Source: Synechococcales cyanobacterium GL140_1_metabinner_5_sub | GTDB lineage: Bacteria > Cyanobacteriota > Cyanobacteriia > Cyanobacteriales > Chamaesiphonaceae | NCBI GenBank assembly: GCA_025359065.1 | Contig: JANYHM010000115.1 | Span: 1 to 64,000 of the forward strand | Length of the DNA: 64,000 nucleotides | Reading direction: 5' to 3' | Shown: positions 6,800 to 34,737 of the stretch, one piece after another | Layout: every line of letters starts with the position of its first letter | Position numbering within the stretch: position 1 is the stretch's first letter | The notes under the pieces: generated by a model | Told to the model about the DNA's origin: nothing | What the model saw: only the letters and a program-made list of their open reading frames with translations | Databases searched by the model: none | Position numbers and translations under genes: made by a program

Positions 6800-7191
6800 T
6801 GGATTTTATTTAATAGGTAAGTGAAAAACAGCACCTTAAAATTGCTTAAGATACCTGGGATATAAAGCTTTTGATGCAGCAGGTTTACTGGTGTATTAAA
6901 AGTTTTGGACATTTATTTTTGATTTTTCGACACTTCTTGACCACCAGAAAAGTTTCCGTGATCAGAGTCACTGGCAGCACCCAAATCAATGGAATAATAG
7001 CATTTTTGCCCCAAAATAATCTATTGAGAATAGTGTAGAGTCAGCAATATGTCTCATTTTTAGCCGCACAGAAATTTGAAGTTGCTGGCTGAGATGAGCC
7101 ATAAGGCTTATTTTGGTTAATACAATGTAGCTGTTGAAGTATGTCTACTGGCAAGTAAAATGTGGAGATCTAGTCCGCATCAAATTTTCCA
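6800..7191. other. Divergent intergenic region between the RTX gene and the GT39 gene
   Basis: These 392 bases are AT-rich and contain no credible reading frame. They must hold the promoters of both divergent genes. Apart from the candidate promoter listed at 7134-7161 I see no operator, hairpin or repeat that I can support. Confidence 0.5.
7134..7161 (+). promoter_or_regulatory. Candidate sigma-70-type promoter for the GT39 gene
   Basis: TTGAAG at 7134-7139 and TAAAAT at 7156-7161 are separated by 16 bases. Transcription would begin near 7168, about 24 bases before the ATG at 7192. The match is by eye only, and such hexamers are common in AT-rich DNA. Confidence 0.3.
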
Positions 7192-8835
7192 ATGCTCAAT
7201 CCTGTTATTTGGCTCCAGACTCAGCATCATCGCTGGATTGCCAGTATTTTGCTGGCTGGTCTCAGCGTCCGGTTAATTATTGCTATCTTTCTGCCGATCG
7301 GCTTCGATGAAGCCTATTACTATGTTTATACCCTGCATCCAAGCTGGAGCTACTTTGACCACCCTCTGTTAGTCTTCTTCACTGCTGGCTTTGGAACTTG
7401 GCTGACTGGCGCGGTGAATCCCTTTACCTTGCGTCTGGGTACGCTGTTGGTTTTTACCGGCGCTTTGATTTTTTTATACAAAACTGCGGAACGTTTGTTC
7501 GATCGTCAAGTTGCCCTCATTACCCTTGGCCTAGCCTCCCTAATGCCCATTTTGACGGTGGCTTTTGGTTCTTTAGCTCAGCCCGATGCGCCTCAGATCT
7601 TTTTTTGGATGGCGACTCTTTGGTTAGCGGCGATCGAGTTTTTTCCTAATACCCCTTATAAACCCACCTATCGGGTAGCACTAATTGGTTTGTTGGTGGG
7701 CTTGACCTGTTTAGCTAAGTATCATGGGTTCTTACTGGGGACTTGTCTGATTGGCTTTTGTTTGAGTAGCCCCAATCATCGCAGAGTATTGACTTCTCCT
7801 TGGGTGTTGTTAGCCAGTTTAGTATTTGCCCTGACTATTTCGCCGATTTTGTATTGGAACTCTGAGCATAGTTGGGCTTCGATCGTTTTTCAATCTAAGC
7901 GGGCTGTTCCCAATGCTAGCTATAACTGGGAAACTTTTTTTCTGACTTTTTTAGTCCACATGGTATATGTTTTTCCTTTGATCGGCTTTCCTTTGATTTG
8001 GTCGATGGGGCAGAATATTCGTTCCCAGTTTCAGCAGCAAGAAGATCCTCGCAAAGGTCAAAAACTTTTAGTGCTATGGCTATCGGCTCCAATTATTGTA
8101 GCCTTTGCGATTATTGCTGGCTATCAGCAAGTGTTGCCAAGCTGGCCGATGGCGGGATATATGACCGCTAGCATTTTGTTGGCCGAGCGATCGCTGGGCT
8201 GGTTTAGTCATCATCCCCGCCGTTTTTGGAATTGGTTGATTGTTACGGCGGTGTTGATTCATCTTATTTTTGTGATCGCTTTGTCGCACTTGACTTTAGG
8301 TACTGCTCAAAAACCCAGTAATAATTCGATCGGCGGGGGCTTTTTGACTTTTGAGGCCGATAATTCGGTGCAGTTGATTGATGTAGGCCAGTTACAGCGA
8401 AAACTGAAAAATAATCCAGCAGTTATGCAGGCTATTGATCATGCTGATTTTATTTTTATCAATCGTTATTTTCCCAGTGGTCAGTTGGCAATGGCACTAC
8501 ACTCCATTACAAAAAAACCCATAACTTGTTTTGATGAAGATTTACGAGGTTTTGCATATTGGTCCACTGCGGAGGAATGGGTGGGCAAAAATGCGGTGTA
8601 TATTGGCTCGGAAACTTTTGGGGTGAATGAAGACGTGGTGAAGCCTAAGGGCTTTGTTTCTACAAAACCGTCAGTGACTTATGAGCCGTTTGAAAGCTAT
8701 TTTTTAAGCATCAAAAAAGTTGCCACTGTTCCTCTGCTTAGAGGTGGGGTAGTAACTCAAACCTGGCAGGTCTATGAGACCGACCAAATGTTGAAGCCAT
8801 ACCCTCGTCCCTATGGGTTAGATGTTGGTAAATAG
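7192..8835 (+). CDS. GT39/ArnT-like polyisoprenyl-phosphate-dependent membrane glycosyltransferase
   Basis: This 547-residue polytopic protein has the first-loop acidic motif of GT-C glycosyltransferases, GFDEAYYYVY (D39, E40), after the first membrane helix. HPSWSYFDHPLL follows, a hallmark of the PMT/ArnT family (PMT_2). About ten to eleven hydrophobic helices fill residues 15-370. The C-terminal third (from about 380) is a soluble, probably periplasmic domain. The family transfers a sugar from a lipid-phosphate carrier to lipid or protein on the outer face of the plasma membrane. The acceptor cannot be told from sequence. No Shine-Dalgarno sequence is obvious before the ATG. It converges with the following gene with a 5-base gap. 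Confidence 0.85.
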   Translation: MLNPVIWLQTQHHRWIASILLAGLSVRLIIAIFLPIGFDEAYYYVYTLHPSWSYFDHPLLVFFTAGFGTWLTGAVNPFTLRLGTLLVFTGALIFLYKTAERLFDRQVALITLGLASLMPILTVAFGSLAQPDAPQIFFWMATLWLAAIEFFPNTPYKPTYRVALIGLLVGLTCLAKYHGFLLGTCLIGFCLSSPNHRRVLTSPWVLLASLVFALTISPILYWNSEHSWASIVFQSKRAVPNASYNWETFFLTFLVHMVYVFPLIGFPLIWSMGQNIRSQFQQQEDPRKGQKLLVLWLSAPIIVAFAIIAGYQQVLPSWPMAGYMTASILLAERSLGWFSHHPRRFWNWLIVTAVLIHLIFVIALSHLTLGTAQKPSNNSIGGGFLTFEADNSVQLIDVGQLQRKLKNNPAVMQAIDHADFIFINRYFPSGQLAMALHSITKKPITCFDEDLRGFAYWSTAEEWVGKNAVYIGSETFGVNEDVVKPKGFVSTKPSVTYEPFESYFLSIKKVATVPLLRGGVVTQTWQVYETDQMLKPYPRPYGLDVGK

Positions 8836-8840
8836 TCAGA

Positions 8841-10070
8841 TTATTGATGACCGACTGCTTTGATCGCTTCTTCTATCGCCAATGCCACATGAGTCCAATG
8901 GGTGCCGCCTTGGCAGAATGCCACATAGGGTTCTCGCAAAGGGCCATCGGCAGAGAACTCGGAGGTGCTGCCGTCGATAAAGGTGCCGCCGGCCATTACC
9001 AATTCATCTTCGTATCCCGGCATGGGGGCAGGGATAGGATCGAGATAGGAGCCGATCGGGGAATATTTTTGAATAGTGCGGCAAAAGGCCAATAGTTTTT
9101 CGGGGGAGCCAAAGCGAATACCTTGGATGACATCGCGGCGGGGGGCAAAGGGAGCTGGGTTGACGGGATATCCTAGTTTTTCAAACACATAAGCAGTCAG
9201 ATGATTGCCCTTTTTGGCCTCACCGACCATCTGGGGTGCTAAAAACAACCCTTGGAACAACAGCCTATTTTGATCGTAAGTGGCACCGCCAGAGCTGCCT
9301 ATGCCCGGTGCGGTGAGGCGACAGGCGGCGGCTTCTACTAAATCTGCACGACCGGCGACATAGCCGCCGCTGGTGACGATCGTTCCCCCCGGATTTTTGA
9401 TTAGGGAGCCTGCAATTAAATCGGCACCGACAGCGGGCGGCTCCCGATTTTCGATGAACTCGCCGTAGCAGTTGTCTACGAAGCAGACGGTGTGGGGGTT
9501 TTGGGCTTTGACTAATTTGACGATGCGGCCAATGTCATCGATCGACAAAGATGACCTCCAAGCATAGCCACAAGAACGCTGAATCAGCACCAGCTTGGTT
9601 TCTGGCCGAATCGCAGTAGCCAGTGCGTCCCAATCGATCTGTAAATCTTCAGCTAGGGGCAGCTCTCGATAACTCACCCCAAAATCTTTTAGGGAACCCT
9701 GGTTTTCGCCTCTGGAGCCAATTACTTCTTCTAAAGTGTCATAAGGTGCCCCGGCTACTGCCAACATTTCATCGCCCGGTCGCAGAACTCCAAACAAAGC
9801 GCAGGCGATCGCATGAGTGCCAGAAACAAACTGCACCCGCACAGCGGCAGCTTCGGCTCCCATTAAATCTGCAAACACCTTATCCATGGTCTCACGGCCT
9901 AGATCGTCGTGCCCATAACCGCTGACGCTGCTGAAGTGATGTACGCCCACCCGGTGATCGCGGTAAGTTTGTAAAACTCGATGCAGATTTTCCTTGACTT
10001 CATTATCAATACCGACAAAAATTTGTAATAAGGCATTTTGTGCCTCGCGAATAAGATCTGAGCTGTTCAT
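8841..10070 (-). CDS. Methionine gamma-lyase family PLP enzyme (aluminium-resistance-protein-like)
   Basis: This fold-type I PLP enzyme belongs to the family annotated as methionine gamma-lyase/aluminium resistance protein (PF06838). With the start at 10070 the protein has 409 residues. The motifs are HHFSSVSGYGHDD, QFVSGTHAIACALFG, VDNCYGEF (Asp of the PLP site) and SLIKNPGGTIVTSGGY, with K225 as the likely Schiff-base lysine. A longer reading frame extends to 10256, but it would overlap the divergent desaturase start and adds non-homologous sequence. MNSSDLIREAQNAL fits the family N-terminus. The true substrate of the family is not firmly established; cystathionine/methionine-type C-S lyase chemistry is inferred. 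Confidence 0.85.
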   Translation of the reverse strand: MNSSDLIREAQNALLQIFVGIDNEVKENLHRVLQTYRDHRVGVHHFSSVSGYGHDDLGRETMDKVFADLMGAEAAAVRVQFVSGTHAIACALFGVLRPGDEMLAVAGAPYDTLEEVIGSRGENQGSLKDFGVSYRELPLAEDLQIDWDALATAIRPETKLVLIQRSCGYAWRSSLSIDDIGRIVKLVKAQNPHTVCFVDNCYGEFIENREPPAVGADLIAGSLIKNPGGTIVTSGGYVAGRADLVEAAACRLTAPGIGSSGGATYDQNRLLFQGLFLAPQMVGEAKKGNHLTAYVFEKLGYPVNPAPFAPRRDVIQGIRFGSPEKLLAFCRTIQKYSPIGSYLDPIPAPMPGYEDELVMAGGTFIDGSTSEFSADGPLREPYVAFCQGGTHWTHVALAIEEAIKAVGHQ

Positions 10071-10142
10071 GCCGTGACAAGGTGAAGTGCAGATGTTATT
10101 TTCGCGCAATTGTGACCACCATTTGAAATTCAGGATGACGGA

Positions 10143-10955
10143 ATGACTGTTGCTGCATCGAAGAAGCTCGCCCTTGACTGGGGTGTAATTGGTTTCATGT
10201 CTATTATTCACGTGGGGGCGATGTTGGCATTTTTGCCGCAGTTCTTTAGTTGGCAAGGGGTAGGGACTGCACTGTTCTTACATTGGATCAGCGGTGGCTT
10301 AGGAATTACGCTCTGTTGGCATCGGATGCTTTCACACAAGAGCTTTCAAACTCCCAAGTGGCTAGAATACTTTTTGGCTTTTTGCGGTACGTTGGCGATG
10401 CAGGGCGGTATTATTTGGTGGGTAGGGATGCACCGTCATCACCATTTACATTCCGATGAAGATGTTGATCATCATGATTCTAAAAAGGGCTTCTGGTGGA
10501 GCCACATGCAGTGGATGCTTCATGAAGTACCTGCGGAAAAAGATGTTGATAAATTTACTAAAGATATGGTCAACGATAAGTTTTACCAGTTTTTAGACAA
10601 GTACTTTTTACCGGTGCAAATTGCTTTAGGCGTAGCTTTGTATTTTATTGGTGGTTGGCCGATCGTCTTTTGGGGAATCTTTGCTCGCTTGGTGTTGGTG
10701 TATCACTGCACTTGGCTGGTGAACAGCGCAACTCACAAGTTTGGCTATCGCACCTATGAAACTAAAGATAATTCCACTAATTGCTGGTGGGTTGCGGTAA
10801 CTACTTATGGTGAAGGTTGGCACAATAATCACCATGCTTACCAATATTCAGCGCGTCATGGCATGAAATGGTGGGAGTTTGATATTACTTGGATAACAAT
10901 TAGATTGCTGCAATTTCTGCGTTTGGCTAGCAATGTGAAGCTTGTTCAAGAATAG
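10143..10955 (+). CDS. desC: Acyl-lipid (delta-9 type) fatty acid desaturase
   Basis: This 270-residue integral membrane di-iron desaturase has all three histidine boxes: H60RMLSH65, H97RHHH101 and H227NNHH231. Two pairs of hydrophobic helices (about 15-50 and 155-195) surround them. Length and box spacing match cyanobacterial DesC enzymes, which put the first double bond into C16/C18 chains of membrane glycerolipids with ferredoxin as electron donor. DesA/DesB-type N-terminal extensions are absent. Cold-responsive expression is usual for the family, but no regulatory site is visible here. It is transcribed divergently from the PLP-enzyme gene and followed by a strong terminator. Confidence 0.88.
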   Translation: MTVAASKKLALDWGVIGFMSIIHVGAMLAFLPQFFSWQGVGTALFLHWISGGLGITLCWHRMLSHKSFQTPKWLEYFLAFCGTLAMQGGIIWWVGMHRHHHLHSDEDVDHHDSKKGFWWSHMQWMLHEVPAEKDVDKFTKDMVNDKFYQFLDKYFLPVQIALGVALYFIGGWPIVFWGIFARLVLVYHCTWLVNSATHKFGYRTYETKDNSTNCWWVAVTTYGEGWHNNHHAYQYSARHGMKWWEFDITWITIRLLQFLRLASNVKLVQE

Positions 10956-10969
10956 TTTTACTAATACTT

Positions 10970-11008
10970 AAAAAGCTAGTGAAAGTTAACTTTCACTAGC
11001 TTTTTTTT
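10970..11008. terminator. Intrinsic bidirectional terminator (36-bp perfect palindrome with T-tract)
   Basis: A perfect palindrome centred on GTTAAC has arms AAAAAGCTAGTGAAAGTT and its complement. It runs into eight T residues on the plus strand and five A-complement bases on the minus side. It sits between the stop of desC and the stop of the convergent gatD-like gene, so it should terminate both. Confidence 0.85.
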
Positions 11009-11026
11009 GGAGAATAATGTCTGTAG

Positions 11027-11824
11027 CTAATCTTTAACTCCCAATCGATCAAGCATCGTAGCTCTTGCCCGATCGGCCAAAGAATCATCTAGCTTGCTCA
11101 ACTGAATATCTTCGCCATACTTGTTTTTAATGGCGGTCTTGATCATCCAATCGGCAATAAACGGATTTTTAGGAATCAATGGCCCATGAGAATAAGTGGC
11201 GATCGCGTTGTGATAAAAGGCACCCTCAGTTTTATCTTCGGCATTATTGCCAAAACCTTTAATCACTGTACCCAGTGCCTCGGCTTGTTCGCCTAAGAAA
11301 GTACGACCACCGTGATTCTCAAAGCCCACAATAATTGGCTTTTGGCCACCCAGCATTTCGGTTAGCTCCTGCGCCAACCGTTTGGCCGTAACTTCAAAAA
11401 CTACGTTGCCAATACAGCGTGGTGCATCAATACCAGGATGTTTACTGACCAAATCAATAATTCCCATGCCATCAATGCGTTCTCCTTGCCCTGGCTCATA
11501 ATATTTACCCAGCAACTGAGGTGAGCCGCAGGTAAACACTCCCGGCGCACCGGCATCTAGCTTGCGACGAATGGCTTCGGTCTTCGCGCCCGCCAAATCG
11601 CGCATGACAATTTCTTGCTGACGGTCTTGGGCACCGCCTCCAGCAATGATATCAACTTGATCTAAGACATCTGGTGGGGTGCTTTGATCGTAAGGCACTA
11701 CTTCGATCGCAATGCCCCGCCACTGAGCGCGTTGTTGAAGGGCAATCACATTGCCCCGATCGCCATAAGTACTCATAAGTTGAGGGTATAGCCAGCCGAT
11801 TTTTAACGAATGTTGAGTAGACAT
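11027..11824 (-). CDS. gatD: Lipid II isoglutaminyl synthase, glutamine amidotransferase subunit
   Basis: This 265-residue class I glutamine amidotransferase is of the CobB/CobQ-like type. GVFTCGSPQLLG supplies the nucleophile C99 and ATYSHGPLIPKNP the catalytic H213. The N-terminal LYPQLMSTYGDRGN and IAGGGAQDRQQ are characteristic of GatD. GatD releases ammonia from glutamine and hands it to MurT, which amidates D-glutamate in the lipid II stem peptide. The gene lies 5 bases after murT, so the two subunits are co-transcribed and presumably made together. Family knowledge comes mainly from Gram-positive bacteria; the same reaction in cyanobacteria is inferred. Confidence 0.85.
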   Translation of the reverse strand: MSTQHSLKIGWLYPQLMSTYGDRGNVIALQQRAQWRGIAIEVVPYDQSTPPDVLDQVDIIAGGGAQDRQQEIVMRDLAGAKTEAIRRKLDAGAPGVFTCGSPQLLGKYYEPGQGERIDGMGIIDLVSKHPGIDAPRCIGNVVFEVTAKRLAQELTEMLGGQKPIIVGFENHGGRTFLGEQAEALGTVIKGFGNNAEDKTEGAFYHNAIATYSHGPLIPKNPFIADWMIKTAIKNKYGEDIQLSKLDDSLADRARATMLDRLGVKD

Positions 11825-11829
11825 AATAA

Positions 11830-13191
11830 CTATAAAATTTTGCGTCCAGTGAGAATTTCGCGTACTTCTAGCATCGCCGAGTAGGTTGGGACAATGTGCA
11901 GGGTTTCGGTGGCTGGTGATAGTTCCAGTGCCTTAGCTAAAGCCTTGGCTGTATCTGGTTCCACCACTAATTGGCAGCCTCCACCCACTTGTTCTTTGCT
12001 GTACTCTAGGCGCAGTGCCATATCGTAGACTCGATCGCCGCTGACTACAATAATGCCGCCTTGGTTCACAAATTTTTCGGTGTCAACATCCCAAATCCAA
12101 GAAACATCGGTGCCATCGGGAGTTCGATCATTCAAAATCATCAGTGTTACTGAGCCACCGCCAGCTTTTTTTACTTGATTGACGGCGCGGATGGTTTCGT
12201 TCATGCCCACCGGATTTTTGGTGAGTAGAATGCGGACTTTTTTGCCTTGATAGACCAGTTCTTCTGCCCGCCCAAAGGCTGCTTGGAAGTTATTGATCAC
12301 ATCCAGCATTTTCTCGGTGCTGACTCCGATCGACTGTGCCGTAGTAATTGCTGCGAGAGTGTTGTATTTGTTGTAGACCCCAATCAAAACCTGTGGCCAT
12401 TTAGCACTATCGATCGATAAAGGCTGCTTGGTAAAATCGCACTTAGGACAGTCAAAATCTCCTTGGTGAGAAAGATACACGCCTTTGTAAGTCAGCGCTG
12501 TGCCACAGCTTGGACAGTGGATTGAATCAACGGCATGGGGAATTTCGTCTAAGTATAAATCTGGTTCGCTCAGCCCAAAATACTTAATTTGTTTGGGGAT
12601 TTCGGCATGTACTAGCTGCTGTCCCAAATGAGTTAGAGCCGGATCATCGCCGTTAGAGATTAGAGTAGTGCCTGCGGGTAAGGCGGCAATAGTTTTTGCC
12701 CATTTATAGACAATGGTATCTACCTCTCCGTAGCGATCGAGCTGATCCCGAAACAGGTTGAGGGTCATAATAAACTTGGGTTTCAGCTCTGGCAACACCA
12801 AGGGGATCACGTTTTCATCGACTTCTAGAATACCGAAGTCTGCTTTTAAGGTGCCGGTAAGACTGGTGCGATCAAGCAAGGTAGTGATCAAACCATTTAC
12901 TAAATTGGCTCCAGCTTCGTTGTGTACCACCGTCCAGCCATCTTTCTCTAGCATGGCTCGTAAGAGCAGCGAGGTAGTGGTTTTACCGTTGGTGCCTGCT
13001 ACCACAATCACCCCATGCTTGATTTGCTGGGAGAGCAAGCTCAAAATACGGGGATGCAAATTTTTGGCAATGGTTCCAGGCAGCACGCTTGCCGCCCCTA
13101 ACTTTAAGGTGCGAATGCTGGTGGTGATTGCCTTGGCGGCAAATACTGCTGCCCCTAACCGGACTCGATCGATCAGACTGATGTTGGCCAT
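11830..13191 (-). CDS. murT: Lipid II isoglutaminyl synthase, Mur-ligase-like subunit
   Basis: This 453-residue protein is of the Mur ligase fold. The ATP loop is GTNGKTTT (residues 66-73), followed by NEAGANLVNG and FRDQLDRYGEVD of the central domain. A four-cysteine zinc ribbon (C226, C229, C248, C251; CPSC...CPKC) is diagnostic of MurT. The C-terminal half carries NPVGMNE and LNDRTPDGTDVSWIWDVD, typical of the DUF1727 domain that docks GatD. It activates the D-Glu carboxylate with ATP for amidation by GatD-derived ammonia. It is the first gene of the murT-gatD operon. Confidence 0.88.
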   Translation of the reverse strand: MANISLIDRVRLGAAVFAAKAITTSIRTLKLGAASVLPGTIAKNLHPRILSLLSQQIKHGVIVVAGTNGKTTTSLLLRAMLEKDGWTVVHNEAGANLVNGLITTLLDRTSLTGTLKADFGILEVDENVIPLVLPELKPKFIMTLNLFRDQLDRYGEVDTIVYKWAKTIAALPAGTTLISNGDDPALTHLGQQLVHAEIPKQIKYFGLSEPDLYLDEIPHAVDSIHCPSCGTALTYKGVYLSHQGDFDCPKCDFTKQPLSIDSAKWPQVLIGVYNKYNTLAAITTAQSIGVSTEKMLDVINNFQAAFGRAEELVYQGKKVRILLTKNPVGMNETIRAVNQVKKAGGGSVTLMILNDRTPDGTDVSWIWDVDTEKFVNQGGIIVVSGDRVYDMALRLEYSKEQVGGGCQLVVEPDTAKALAKALELSPATETLHIVPTYSAMLEVREILTGRKIL

Positions 13192-31721: not shown

Positions 31722-31877
31722 ATGGATTTCAATATAATTGAATTAGCGAAGTTTTCTACTGTGGTGATGCTAATGCTTTCATGCTCGCTAGCAACACCTT
31801 CATTTTACAAAAATCAGCTCAACTGCGCATATCCTATTTCCTTAATACTAATAACATGTTGTCATGATGGTAGATAA
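31722..31877 (+). CDS. Small hydrophobic open reading frame of unknown function (51 aa)
   Basis: The frame runs from ATG 31722 to TAA 31875-31877. It encodes a hydrophobic N-terminal stretch (STVVMLMLSCSLATPSF) and a second one (YPISLILITCC). It overlaps the start of the 195-residue membrane protein by 14 bases. VVMLMLSC resembles a lipoprotein-type signal but lacks a clean lipobox. Composition is very AT-rich. It could be an authentic small membrane protein coupled to the next gene, or the remnant 5' part of a longer gene. I recognise no family. Confidence 0.4.
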   Translation: MDFNIIELAKFSTVVMLMLSCSLATPSFYKNQLNCAYPISLILITCCHDGR

Positions 31878-32451
31878 ATCGGATCTCTTTTTAGATGTAT
31901 TCTTGGGGCTTTTAGAGTTTATAGTATTAGTTGTTTTCTTCAAAGAAACCAAGAATTATTTGATGTTTCAGATCAGCTATTATTATTACTTGATGGCAGC
32001 TCCTTTCTTTTGGATAGGAAGTTTCATTGAAATCCTTTTCTCTCCAGAAACAAGCTGTATTTCACCTCTGGACGACATTCCACTAAATGACCCTAAGATC
32101 ACTGCTAATAGATATTCTCAGATATCAGACCTATTTGAATTACTACTTTTATCTTTGCCAAACATACTGCCAATTGTATTAGAATTGACAGTTGGAGCAA
32201 TATTAATAATAATTAAGTATGCAATAATTAAGAGAATTTCTATAGATGACTTGTACTTGATACACTACATGCCGTTGATTATTAGTATCATACCTTTATA
32301 TATCACGAAATTATATAGCTATATACCGATAGAGGCGGAAAAATATATATATGATCCTTACAATTTCATAGGAGTCATATTAAATACCTTATTCTTAATA
32401 GCTGGCGGTTTATTAGGTTTAAGTACATTGCAATGGTTGGTTGTGAGGTGA
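31864..32451 (+). CDS. AT-rich multi-spanning membrane protein of unknown family (195 aa)
   Basis: Four to five hydrophobic helices are visible: residues about 8-25 (FLGLLEFIVLVVFF), 35-55 (SYYYYLMAAPFFWIGSFIEILF), 90-115 (LPIVLELTVGAILIIIKYAII), 130-145 (MPLIISIIPLYI) and 170-190 (VILNTLFLIAGGLLGL). No charged catalytic motif stands out. The codon use (ATA, TTA, AAT) is far more AT-biased than that of gltD or radA, suggesting recent transfer. It lies between the gltD terminator and the convergent telomere-resolvase-like gene. Function unknown. Confidence 0.6.
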   Translation: MMVDKSDLFLDVFLGLLEFIVLVVFFKETKNYLMFQISYYYYLMAAPFFWIGSFIEILFSPETSCISPLDDIPLNDPKITANRYSQISDLFELLLLSLPNILPIVLELTVGAILIIIKYAIIKRISIDDLYLIHYMPLIISIIPLYITKLYSYIPIEAEKYIYDPYNFIGVILNTLFLIAGGLLGLSTLQWLVVR

Positions 32452-32817
32452 AAATGCTCGGGATAGCATCAACTCAAATCTGAAGCGCAAAATTCTGAGC
32501 GGTTGGCAATTTAGCCTAAATAACAGATACTGTAGGGGGCATTGCTGATTTTTAGTATGAACTAAAGGTACCAATAATGTCAGGTCAGTCTTTGACTTAT
32601 ACCTTCATACTCTGATTCAGCAACGTCAACAGTTTTTACTTATGGCCTTCAAGATTATTATTGCAATATGCTGGTCTGTATTGATTCGCCGCATTGAGGT
32701 AATTATTGACTGATGATCATATTATTCACAATTGAGGTATTGCTATGTTGCAAGTAGCTAAGCAGTTATTGTGCAGTCTCATCGCTTTTACTACTAAAAT
32801 TTTGGCCAGCCCTTAGA
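32452..32817. other. Convergent intergenic region downstream of the telomere-resolvase-like gene
   Basis: These 366 AT-rich bases hold several very short frames, one of which is 32745-32816 (23 codons, preceded by TTGAGGTATT). None is recognisable as a protein. A 24-base stretch at 32467-32490 recurs with three mismatches at 48847-48870. No clear terminator is seen for either converging gene. Confidence 0.4.
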
Positions 32818-34641
32818 TTAATCTTGATTTCGGTACTGTCGCATATAATCTAAGATCATGTCGAGTTTTTTGGATTGGTGACGGGGCTGGATGTCGTATT
32901 TAGCATGATGTCGATCGATCATTTCAGCCTGTTCCTCCAGCACCAATTTAATCGCAGGCATATTGCAGCCGGTGACTTTAAGCAACAAAGTTTGAGAAAT
33001 AGCAAACTTTTGGTCGTTTTGATGGTTCCAGAGCACAATGGCATCGATCGCTGCCAAAATTTTAGTAGCTGCCGGTTTACGGCGTTCTGTCCTAGATTTT
33101 ACAGGTGATTCTGTAGGCGATACAGAGATTTTGGGAGATTGTGCTGTCATCATAGATTTTGCTCTAGGTGGTTGCAAAATATTCATCAGTTGTTCAATTC
33201 TTTGCTGATAGCCGAGATTAGCTTGGTATAAAGTAGCTACTTCTTCTTCTAGTTCGGCAATATGACTATGGGCAGCAGCTAATTCTTGGGTCAATTGTGC
33301 TGACGTACTCTGGACAGCAGTAACCGGTGGCTGAGAAGTATTGCTGTTTAGATGTTGCCATAAGCGACTGACCTCTTGTTGCAGGGCAGTGAACTGCTGT
33401 GGATCAATGGCCGGGGTGTTGGGTTGCGAAGACTCATGGGAATCGGCAGGGGTATTACTCACTTTTTTTGCGGCTTTACTAACTGGTTTTTGGGCTGTTG
33501 GATTAGTCAGCAACTCTAGCTGCACTGGCGTAGCATCTAGATCTGCATAATTATCACTCATGTTCGGCATAGATTTTCCTAACTTGATGCCCTTAGCACC
33601 CAAATGCTGACCGTTACTATCTATCAAATAGTAATGAAAATAATGTTGCGTAGCCGAAGAATTAGCTCGCTTTAGCTCATCGGCAGAAATCACATGTCCT
33701 AATCTTTCTTGCACAAAGCGGGAGATAGCCCGATCGGGTGGACAAAAAAAGTGAGTACAAATTTCGCCGTAAACTCCTCGCAAATTATGTATAGTCACTG
33801 CCGATTCGCTGGGTAGAATGGGCACAACGCCAGTATCACCAAAGTTCCGAATAACCGATCGCTTCACAGAATCTGCCAGGCTGCGGTTAATTTCGATCGC
33901 CGAAAAATCTGCCAGGGCGGCGATGCGAGGATGCTGACGAAAACGCTCCATGGCATCAAGGACGATTGCTGCCGGTAACAAACATGGAGTTAAATAACTA
34001 TCGGCTTTAGACCGTTTTTTAAGTTGACCAGCAAAGCTGATCCAGTATAGATCACTCGTAGCTGTCATCGTGCCTTTGGCGACGACTTCCGAAAATCTTC
34101 TGCCAGTAGTGGCCGCAATACCCACGGCCAAATCAAAGGGATCCGCAGCAGTCAGTAAACCTGCTGCGATGGCCAGAAATATATCAGGGTTAACCGGTTG
34201 CAGATTGTCTTGCTTTAAATTATTTCGTTCGGCAGAGATGCCTGCAAACTGGCTATAAGTGGCACTGTCGTATTTTAGATAGTCCAAGGCAAAGTGATTG
34301 ATCGCCTGTTCGACTTCACCGCTGTTGCGTTTGCTGTAAGTATATTCTCGACTAGTATTTTTGGTAAGGGGCAACAGGCCGTCATCTACGGCAGCTTGGA
34401 TAGCTTTGCGGTACATGGGCAGATAGACTTTGCCGATCGTGGCCTGAGGATAGCCTTCTTCTAACAGCGCAATTTCGGCGGTGCAGAGTTCTTGGATCTT
34501 GGCTTTATTTTTGGTGATGGCTAGCCGATCGATGAATTCTACAATCAGTTCAGCTAAGTCGGTTTTGGTTAAGCGGGTACGTTCGCTAGCAGCAATGCGC
34601 TGGCGATATTGATCAATAATTAACTGTCTAGATAAGGTCAC
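32818..34641 (-). CDS. Telomere resolvase (protelomerase)-like tyrosine recombinase
   Basis: In this 607-residue protein, residues ~150-340 match the catalytic core of hairpin-telomere resolvases (ResT/TelK type) better than that of XerC/integrases. LAVGIAATTGRRFSEVV (R181/R182) is followed by the beta-hairpin WISFAGQLKKRS (K208/K209). H285NLRGVYGEI supplies R288, then comes ERLGH316, and a C-terminal TQHYFHYY gives Y334 as the probable nucleophile. In phage TelK the corresponding stretches read SGRRMIE, NFSGQAKKRS, SRAIYARI, EILGH and TQLHY (from memory). The N-terminal 145 residues are helical. After the core come a Ser/Thr/Pro-rich linker, a coiled coil (~415-485) and a conserved-looking C-terminal domain (KILAAIDAIVLWNHQNDQKF). 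The start is GTG; no in-frame ATG lies upstream. Telomere resolvases cut and rejoin inverted-repeat sites into hairpins; that activity here is inferred. Confidence 0.8.
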   Translation of the reverse strand: MTLSRQLIIDQYRQRIAASERTRLTKTDLAELIVEFIDRLAITKNKAKIQELCTAEIALLEEGYPQATIGKVYLPMYRKAIQAAVDDGLLPLTKNTSREYTYSKRNSGEVEQAINHFALDYLKYDSATYSQFAGISAERNNLKQDNLQPVNPDIFLAIAAGLLTAADPFDLAVGIAATTGRRFSEVVAKGTMTATSDLYWISFAGQLKKRSKADSYLTPCLLPAAIVLDAMERFRQHPRIAALADFSAIEINRSLADSVKRSVIRNFGDTGVVPILPSESAVTIHNLRGVYGEICTHFFCPPDRAISRFVQERLGHVISADELKRANSSATQHYFHYYLIDSNGQHLGAKGIKLGKSMPNMSDNYADLDATPVQLELLTNPTAQKPVSKAAKKVSNTPADSHESSQPNTPAIDPQQFTALQQEVSRLWQHLNSNTSQPPVTAVQSTSAQLTQELAAAHSHIAELEEEVATLYQANLGYQQRIEQLMNILQPPRAKSMMTAQSPKISVSPTESPVKSRTERRKPAATKILAAIDAIVLWNHQNDQKFAISQTLLLKVTGCNMPAIKLVLEEQAEMIDRHHAKYDIQPRHQSKKLDMILDYMRQYRNQD

Positions 34642-34737
34642 AAGTGTATGGTTAAAGCTATATAGATTTTTTTGATCATACTTGAGGACTGGAGCATCTG
34701 GGGAATTGAGGATACATAGGACTCCGCAGCAGCCAGA

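Follow-up and report, generated by a model that had tools for sequence, protein, structure and literature searches.

Why does the chromosome of a cyanobacterium carry a gene for what looks like a hairpin-telomere resolvase, and on what would such an enzyme act? Most of what is known of hairpin telomeres comes from Borrelia, Agrobacterium and a small number of phages. An earlier note on the 64,000-nucleotide stretch of DNA analysed here (the window) had described a 607-residue protein resembling the ResT/TelK-type resolvases, and had proposed that either cyanobacteria hold hairpin-ended replicons or the fold has been reused for another strand-transfer job. The open reading frame and every motif quoted from it are present (Table 1), and the gene is single-copy in the 3.92-Mb, 121-contig draft genome.

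Table 1. Position of the resolvase gene, of the regions of its product and of the segment common to both species of the genus
Feature	Position in the window	Strand	Basis or remark
Telomere resolvase (protelomerase) gene	32818..34641	-	607 aa, GTG start; Pfam, PDB sequence and structure matches
ResT/TelK catalytic domain (residues 146-337)	33631..34206	-	Pfam match, invariance, structure
Catalytic-domain residues R182, K208, H285-x-x-R288, H316, Y334	within 33631..34206	-	
Predicted N-terminal helical DNA-clamp region, TelA-like (residues 1-145)	34207..34641	-	Structural alignment of the model to TelA
Variable linker and coiled coil (residues 346-525)	33067..33606	-	
C-terminal helical domain (residues 515-607)	32821..33099	-	Putatively HTH-like; pLDDT 85.6
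Unit common to the window genome and congener G395	32662..34705	-	Resolvase gene with about 156 bp 3' and 64 bp 5'

A profile search against the ResT-TelK catalytic domain (PF16684) returned a match over the full length of the model (E 3.7e-46; 157 bits, with the cut-off at 27), while ordinary phage-integrase families were absent from the Pfam hits of the protein down to E 1. The protein also matches the NCBIfam TelA model, with a score under the equivalog cut-off, and in a sequence search of the PDB TelA came first (E 5e-7) and TelK was found at E 0.012. The AlphaFold2 model of residues 1–372, computed from a 15-sequence input (pLDDT 83), matched the structures of TelA (Z 24.5 over 279 residues), TelK (Z 20.1) and the ResT catalytic domain (Z 15.2) ahead of all others. 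The best non-resolvase structure was XerA at Z 10.4, with all Xer and phage integrases at or below this value; Foldseek likewise ranked resolvases ahead of non-resolvases (E 1e-13 versus 8e-3), and the VIA-align superposition on TelA spanned model residues 25–349. An ordinary tyrosine recombinase of the Xer or phage-integrase kind, merely resembling resolvases, would have the catalytic fold common to both groups and could account for the H-x-x-R motif, but this reading is extremely improbable: it is refuted by the Pfam result and by the Foldseek and structure rankings, in which TelA, TelK and ResT outrank every Xer/Int structure with a clear gap in Z, and the relatives of the window protein are linked to hairpin ends (see below). 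A best match to Xer or phage integrases, which the earlier note had named as counting against its reading, was looked for, and resolvases were found in its place. Judged by its sequence and predicted fold, the window protein is almost certainly a hairpin-telomere resolvase.

In an alignment of 15 sequences R181, R182, K208, R288 and H316 are invariant and Y334 is nearly so; the active-site positions are conserved in a broader family set as well. Of the two lysines put forward earlier, K208 and K209, the first is invariant and aligned to a TelA lysine and was retained, and the second was dropped. The H-x-x-R motif can no longer be regarded as a special departure from the K-x-x-R of TelK, since this position varies between H, K, Q and R across the family. 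After subtraction of the 20-residue tag of the crystal construct (an offset worked out from the PDB alignment), R182 pairs with TelA R255, which coordinates the scissile phosphate (PMC3558466). Compared with TelA and TelK, the window protein has a longer loop between H316 and Y334, which is poorly modelled, with pLDDT below 50 at residues 317–319 and 322–328. The linker, coiled coil and distinct C-terminal domain noticed earlier beyond the catalytic core were also recovered. The last 93 residues are modelled with confidence as a helical domain, for which a structure search of the PDB gave no significant match; modules related to it are separate proteins on resolvase-bearing cyanobacterial plasmid contigs, and our guess is that the domain may bind DNA.

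In an even sample of the phylum, PF16684 was matched in 15 of 386 genomes, mostly on plasmid-size contigs, and the relatives encoded by cyanobacterial plasmids bear the NCBI name 'protelomerase family protein'. The closest whole-length relatives outside the genus lie on two Phormidesmis priestleyi contigs (ULC007 and BC1401), which join the window gene in the tree with support of 100/99; S. elongatus-like and other weak PF16684 hits, in whose alignment the motif set is absent, were left out of this tree. No relative was found in the IMG/VR viral contigs searched, and phage records contained no close one (best identity about 23%–27%). The gene is also missing from the sister genus, including a genome assembled in three contigs.

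Where an assembly continues past a closed hairpin, it contains its own mirror image. Such mirror images, palindromes at a terminus and inverted terminal repeats were fixed as the criteria for a hairpin footprint, and one or more of them were observed in 16 of 30 cyanobacterial records or contigs with a resolvase, versus none of 120 contigs of the window genome (Fisher p 1e-13). Because the latter are mostly chromosomal and many of them have one real tip only, four sibling plasmids without a previously reported resolvase served as a second control. Three of the four have neither inverted ends nor a resolvase; the fourth, AP018304.1 (Fischerella sp. NIES-4106 plasmid6), filed as circular, has perfect inverted ends of 2,213 bp and an open reading frame, not annotated in the record, that matches the resolvase profile (E 2e-16). 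Inverted ends of 2.9 kb and 1.5 kb were seen in two of its siblings (L228 and L037, respectively), and all three are probably hairpin-ended linear plasmids that have been misfiled.

The footprints take several forms. Plasmid pGLO7428.02 of Gloeocapsa PCC 7428, filed as linear, has the 36-bp palindrome TACATTGTTATATTGGAATTCCAATATAACAATGTA at both tips and identical inverted terminal repeats of 1,340 bp, and the core of this palindrome, with arms of at least 188 bp, recurs in a Gloeocapsopsis dulcis plasmid filed as circular. In Phormidesmis BC1401 a perfect palindrome with 8,741-bp arms is centred 584 bp from the resolvase start, and in Phormidesmis ULC007 mirrored arms of 4,116 bp flank a scaffold gap. 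Oculatella LEGE 06141 has a terminal 42-bp palindrome about 460 bp from its resolvase gene, Stenomitos ULC18 has arms of 574 bp, and other resolvase-bearing plasmids have inverted ends of 0.16 to 2.9 kb. Most of the 44-kb record of Nostoc sp. C052 pC052_H (NZ_CP040280.1) mirrors itself: it has two resolvase genes in mirrored positions and one common 82-bp palindrome at the centres 14179 and 38103. The record probably arose when one or more linear plasmids, each about 22 kb long, were read across their hairpins. Hairpin-closed Nostoc plasmids were described by Gagunashvili and Andresson, and the pC052_H half-site AAATTAACAGAC fits the end AAATTAACRGAC published for them on read evidence (PMC5987646). 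Reads also support hairpins on Nostoc pNPM8-10 (PMC5987646), which all carry the family of the window resolvase. The earlier proposal that cyanobacteria hold hairpin-ended replicons is therefore true for the resolvase family, on the strength of these published plasmids (PMC5987646) and of the footprints on many resolvase-bearing replicons.

Two further records deserve mention. In L047 (G027:C1), a 4.68-Mb single contig and apparent chromosome, a near-perfect palindrome of 6,159 bp (6922–13080) contains two mirrored resolvase genes and would be explained either by contig joining across a hairpin or by integration of a dimer. L045 (G078:C59) has 38-bp palindromes at both tips, centred on TCATGA, which are the six overhang bases of the TelA crystal substrate (PMC3558466).

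The window gene itself lies on a 143.5-kb contig among gltD, mraY, pyrD and tRNA-Leu, with a DUF952 gene and a phosphatase/mutase-family gene as further neighbours. The resolvase of the congener (G395, the only one in the collections; a MAG with 84% amino-acid identity) is also on a chromosomal contig, next to genes for an antiporter, a trypsin-like protease, RNase J and dapA. The two species thus have the gene at different chromosomal places, each neighbour set being dispersed in the other genome, and their homology at the locus is limited to 2,044 bp (the gene with 156 and 64 bp of flanks), ending on both sides. The phage structural, replication or partition genes by which a telomere (N15-like) prophage was to be recognised do not adjoin the resolvase in the window or in the congener, and no other plasmid or phage gene was recognised next to it in either species. 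At window 32538–32626, 36 bp from the edge of the common unit, lies a MITE-like repeat of about 89 bp that is predicted to fold strongly and is found in at least five places in the window genome. A 195-aa membrane-protein-like open reading frame without a family match (window 31859–32465) is present a second time, with 91% identity, at G000:C30:3835-4441.

Between the two species the resolvase has a dS of 0.76, within the range of five host genes (0.51–1.29), which fits vertical descent within the genus and not recent transfer. The dN/dS of 0.13 overall, and of about 0.06 in the catalytic domain, argues for function. The N-terminal region is 92% identical to that of the congener, and the linker with the coiled coil evolves faster (66% identical, dN/dS about 0.2). 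The reading frame is intact in both species; a TAA in the congener gene, considered as a possible defect, is its normal stop codon. These data bear on the view that the gene is a leftover of an integrated or decayed linear plasmid, functionless today. The isolation of the gene, the break of synteny on either side and the repeats nearby are what such a remnant would leave, yet both reading frames are intact, no further plasmid or phage gene adjoins the resolvase, and the constraint on the catalytic domain at a dS near 0.7 is a strong counter-argument, so that we hold this view to be very unlikely.

No terminal palindrome or inverted terminal repeat was present at about 190 of the 242 contig tips of the window genome. 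A telomere-like palindrome was likewise missing from the 1.64 Mb that were sampled of its 3.92 Mb; the Gloeocapsa-type telomere core, searched with up to three mismatches, is absent from both genomes of the genus. Among perfect palindromes without a loop, the 1.64-Mb sample contains a single one whose arms reach 16 bp; it is 36 bp long (window 10970–11005) and was considered as a resolution site. It is placed between convergent gene ends and has A/T runs like the other terminators of the genome, and neither the congener nor three further genomes of the family have it. It was therefore assigned to a bidirectional terminator and rejected as a telomere site. The shortest contig, of 2,032 bp, suggests that the window genome is a binned metagenome assembly. 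Such assemblies easily lose small plasmids, and the missing telomere is therefore weak evidence.

These results can be set against the notion that the main chromosome of the genus is linear with hairpin ends and maintained by its own resolvase. This notion predicts a chromosomal and vertically kept resolvase, as seen, but the examined tips bear no hairpin footprint and the sister genus lacks the gene, and we regard it as highly improbable. Taken more broadly, as a linear main chromosome with hairpin telomeres or a chromosomal resolvase co-opted for a chromosomal palindrome, the idea is still decidedly unlikely; if true, a photosynthetic bacterium would have a hairpin-telomere system of its own that is inherited vertically.

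The main alternative is a domesticated resolvase, which has kept the fold and performs another DNA job on the chromosome; it might, for example, anneal single strands, process forks or hairpins, or act as a site-specific recombinase at a chromosomal site. The position of the gene among housekeeping genes in two species, the purifying selection and the lack of a telomere in the host sample would suit such a role, and ResT and TelA do anneal single-stranded DNA besides resolving telomeres (PMC7861564). Nevertheless, the protein retains all of its catalytic residues, and few of its parts are as constrained as the catalytic domain, which fits strand cleavage and not annealing alone, and no chromosomal target site was seen; we consider domestication unlikely.

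The explanation that we favour, and hold to be fairly probable, is that the gene encodes a functional telomere resolvase that reached the chromosome from a lineage of hairpin plasmids and acts in trans on a linear replicon. The gene would have come from cyanobacterial linear plasmids before the split of the two known species of the genus and would have been retained on the chromosome under purifying selection. Its substrate would most likely be a hairpin-ended linear plasmid or chromid that is missing from the draft genome or unrecognisable in it. By analogy to the TelA/TelK mechanism, a resolvase dimer would bind the perfect palindrome that arises when a hairpin-ended replicon is replicated, Y334 would attack the scissile phosphates with the assistance of R182, K208, R288 and H316, and the strands, each folded back and rejoined, would give two closed hairpins. 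Both the catalytic activity of the window copy and the presence of its substrate in the host are thus what we infer. The trans-acting arrangement, which we take as the most likely one, has a precedent in Agrobacterium biovar 1, where a resolvase encoded on the circular chromosome acts on a separate linear replicon (PMC13293297).

The resolvase family, its presence in cyanobacteria and the hairpin plasmids of Nostoc are already known. Hairpin telomeres in cyanobacteria have been mentioned without detail (PMC3558466), and the paper on the cyanobacterial hairpin plasmids (PMC5987646) does not name the resolvase, nor does the term 'telomer' occur in it. Our literature search found no paper on a chromosomal cyanobacterial resolvase, and we did not find a description of a chromosomal copy under selection or of the breadth of the telomere footprints. 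The gathered evidence indicates that hairpin telomeres recur on plasmids across cyanobacteria; the records of several replicons with hairpin footprints give a circular topology, and in several cases the telomere sequence itself can now be taken directly from the record. The chromosomal resolvase of the two species poses the question of whether the host relies on a linear replicon or the enzyme has acquired a new job.

Among the known systems, the resolvases of cyanobacterial plasmids (Phormidesmis, Gloeocapsa PCC 7428 pGLO7428.02, Gloeocapsopsis dulcis and Gloeothece PCC 7822) have the domain order and catalytic residues of the window protein. The nearer of them outside the genus belong to the same tree clade and are 36%–64% identical to it over the first 370 or so residues, while the Nostoc pNPM8-10 clade is more distant. 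These relatives reside mostly on plasmid-size records, many of which have terminal palindromes or inverted repeats, whereas the contig of the window gene is chromosomal and has no telomere close to the gene. The TelK and TelN proteins of telomere phages resemble the window protein in fold (as judged for TelK) and motif order, but the window gene is not surrounded by phage genes. ResT of Borrelia has the catalytic domain fold and PF16684 in common with it and serves known linear chromosomes and plasmids, whereas the substrate of the window protein is a proposed one. TelA of Agrobacterium is the closest solved structure; the window protein differs in its extra coiled coil and C-terminal domain and in having no known cognate linear chromid, and it resembles TelA in its genomic setting, as TelA of biovar 1 is also chromosome-encoded (PMC13293297).
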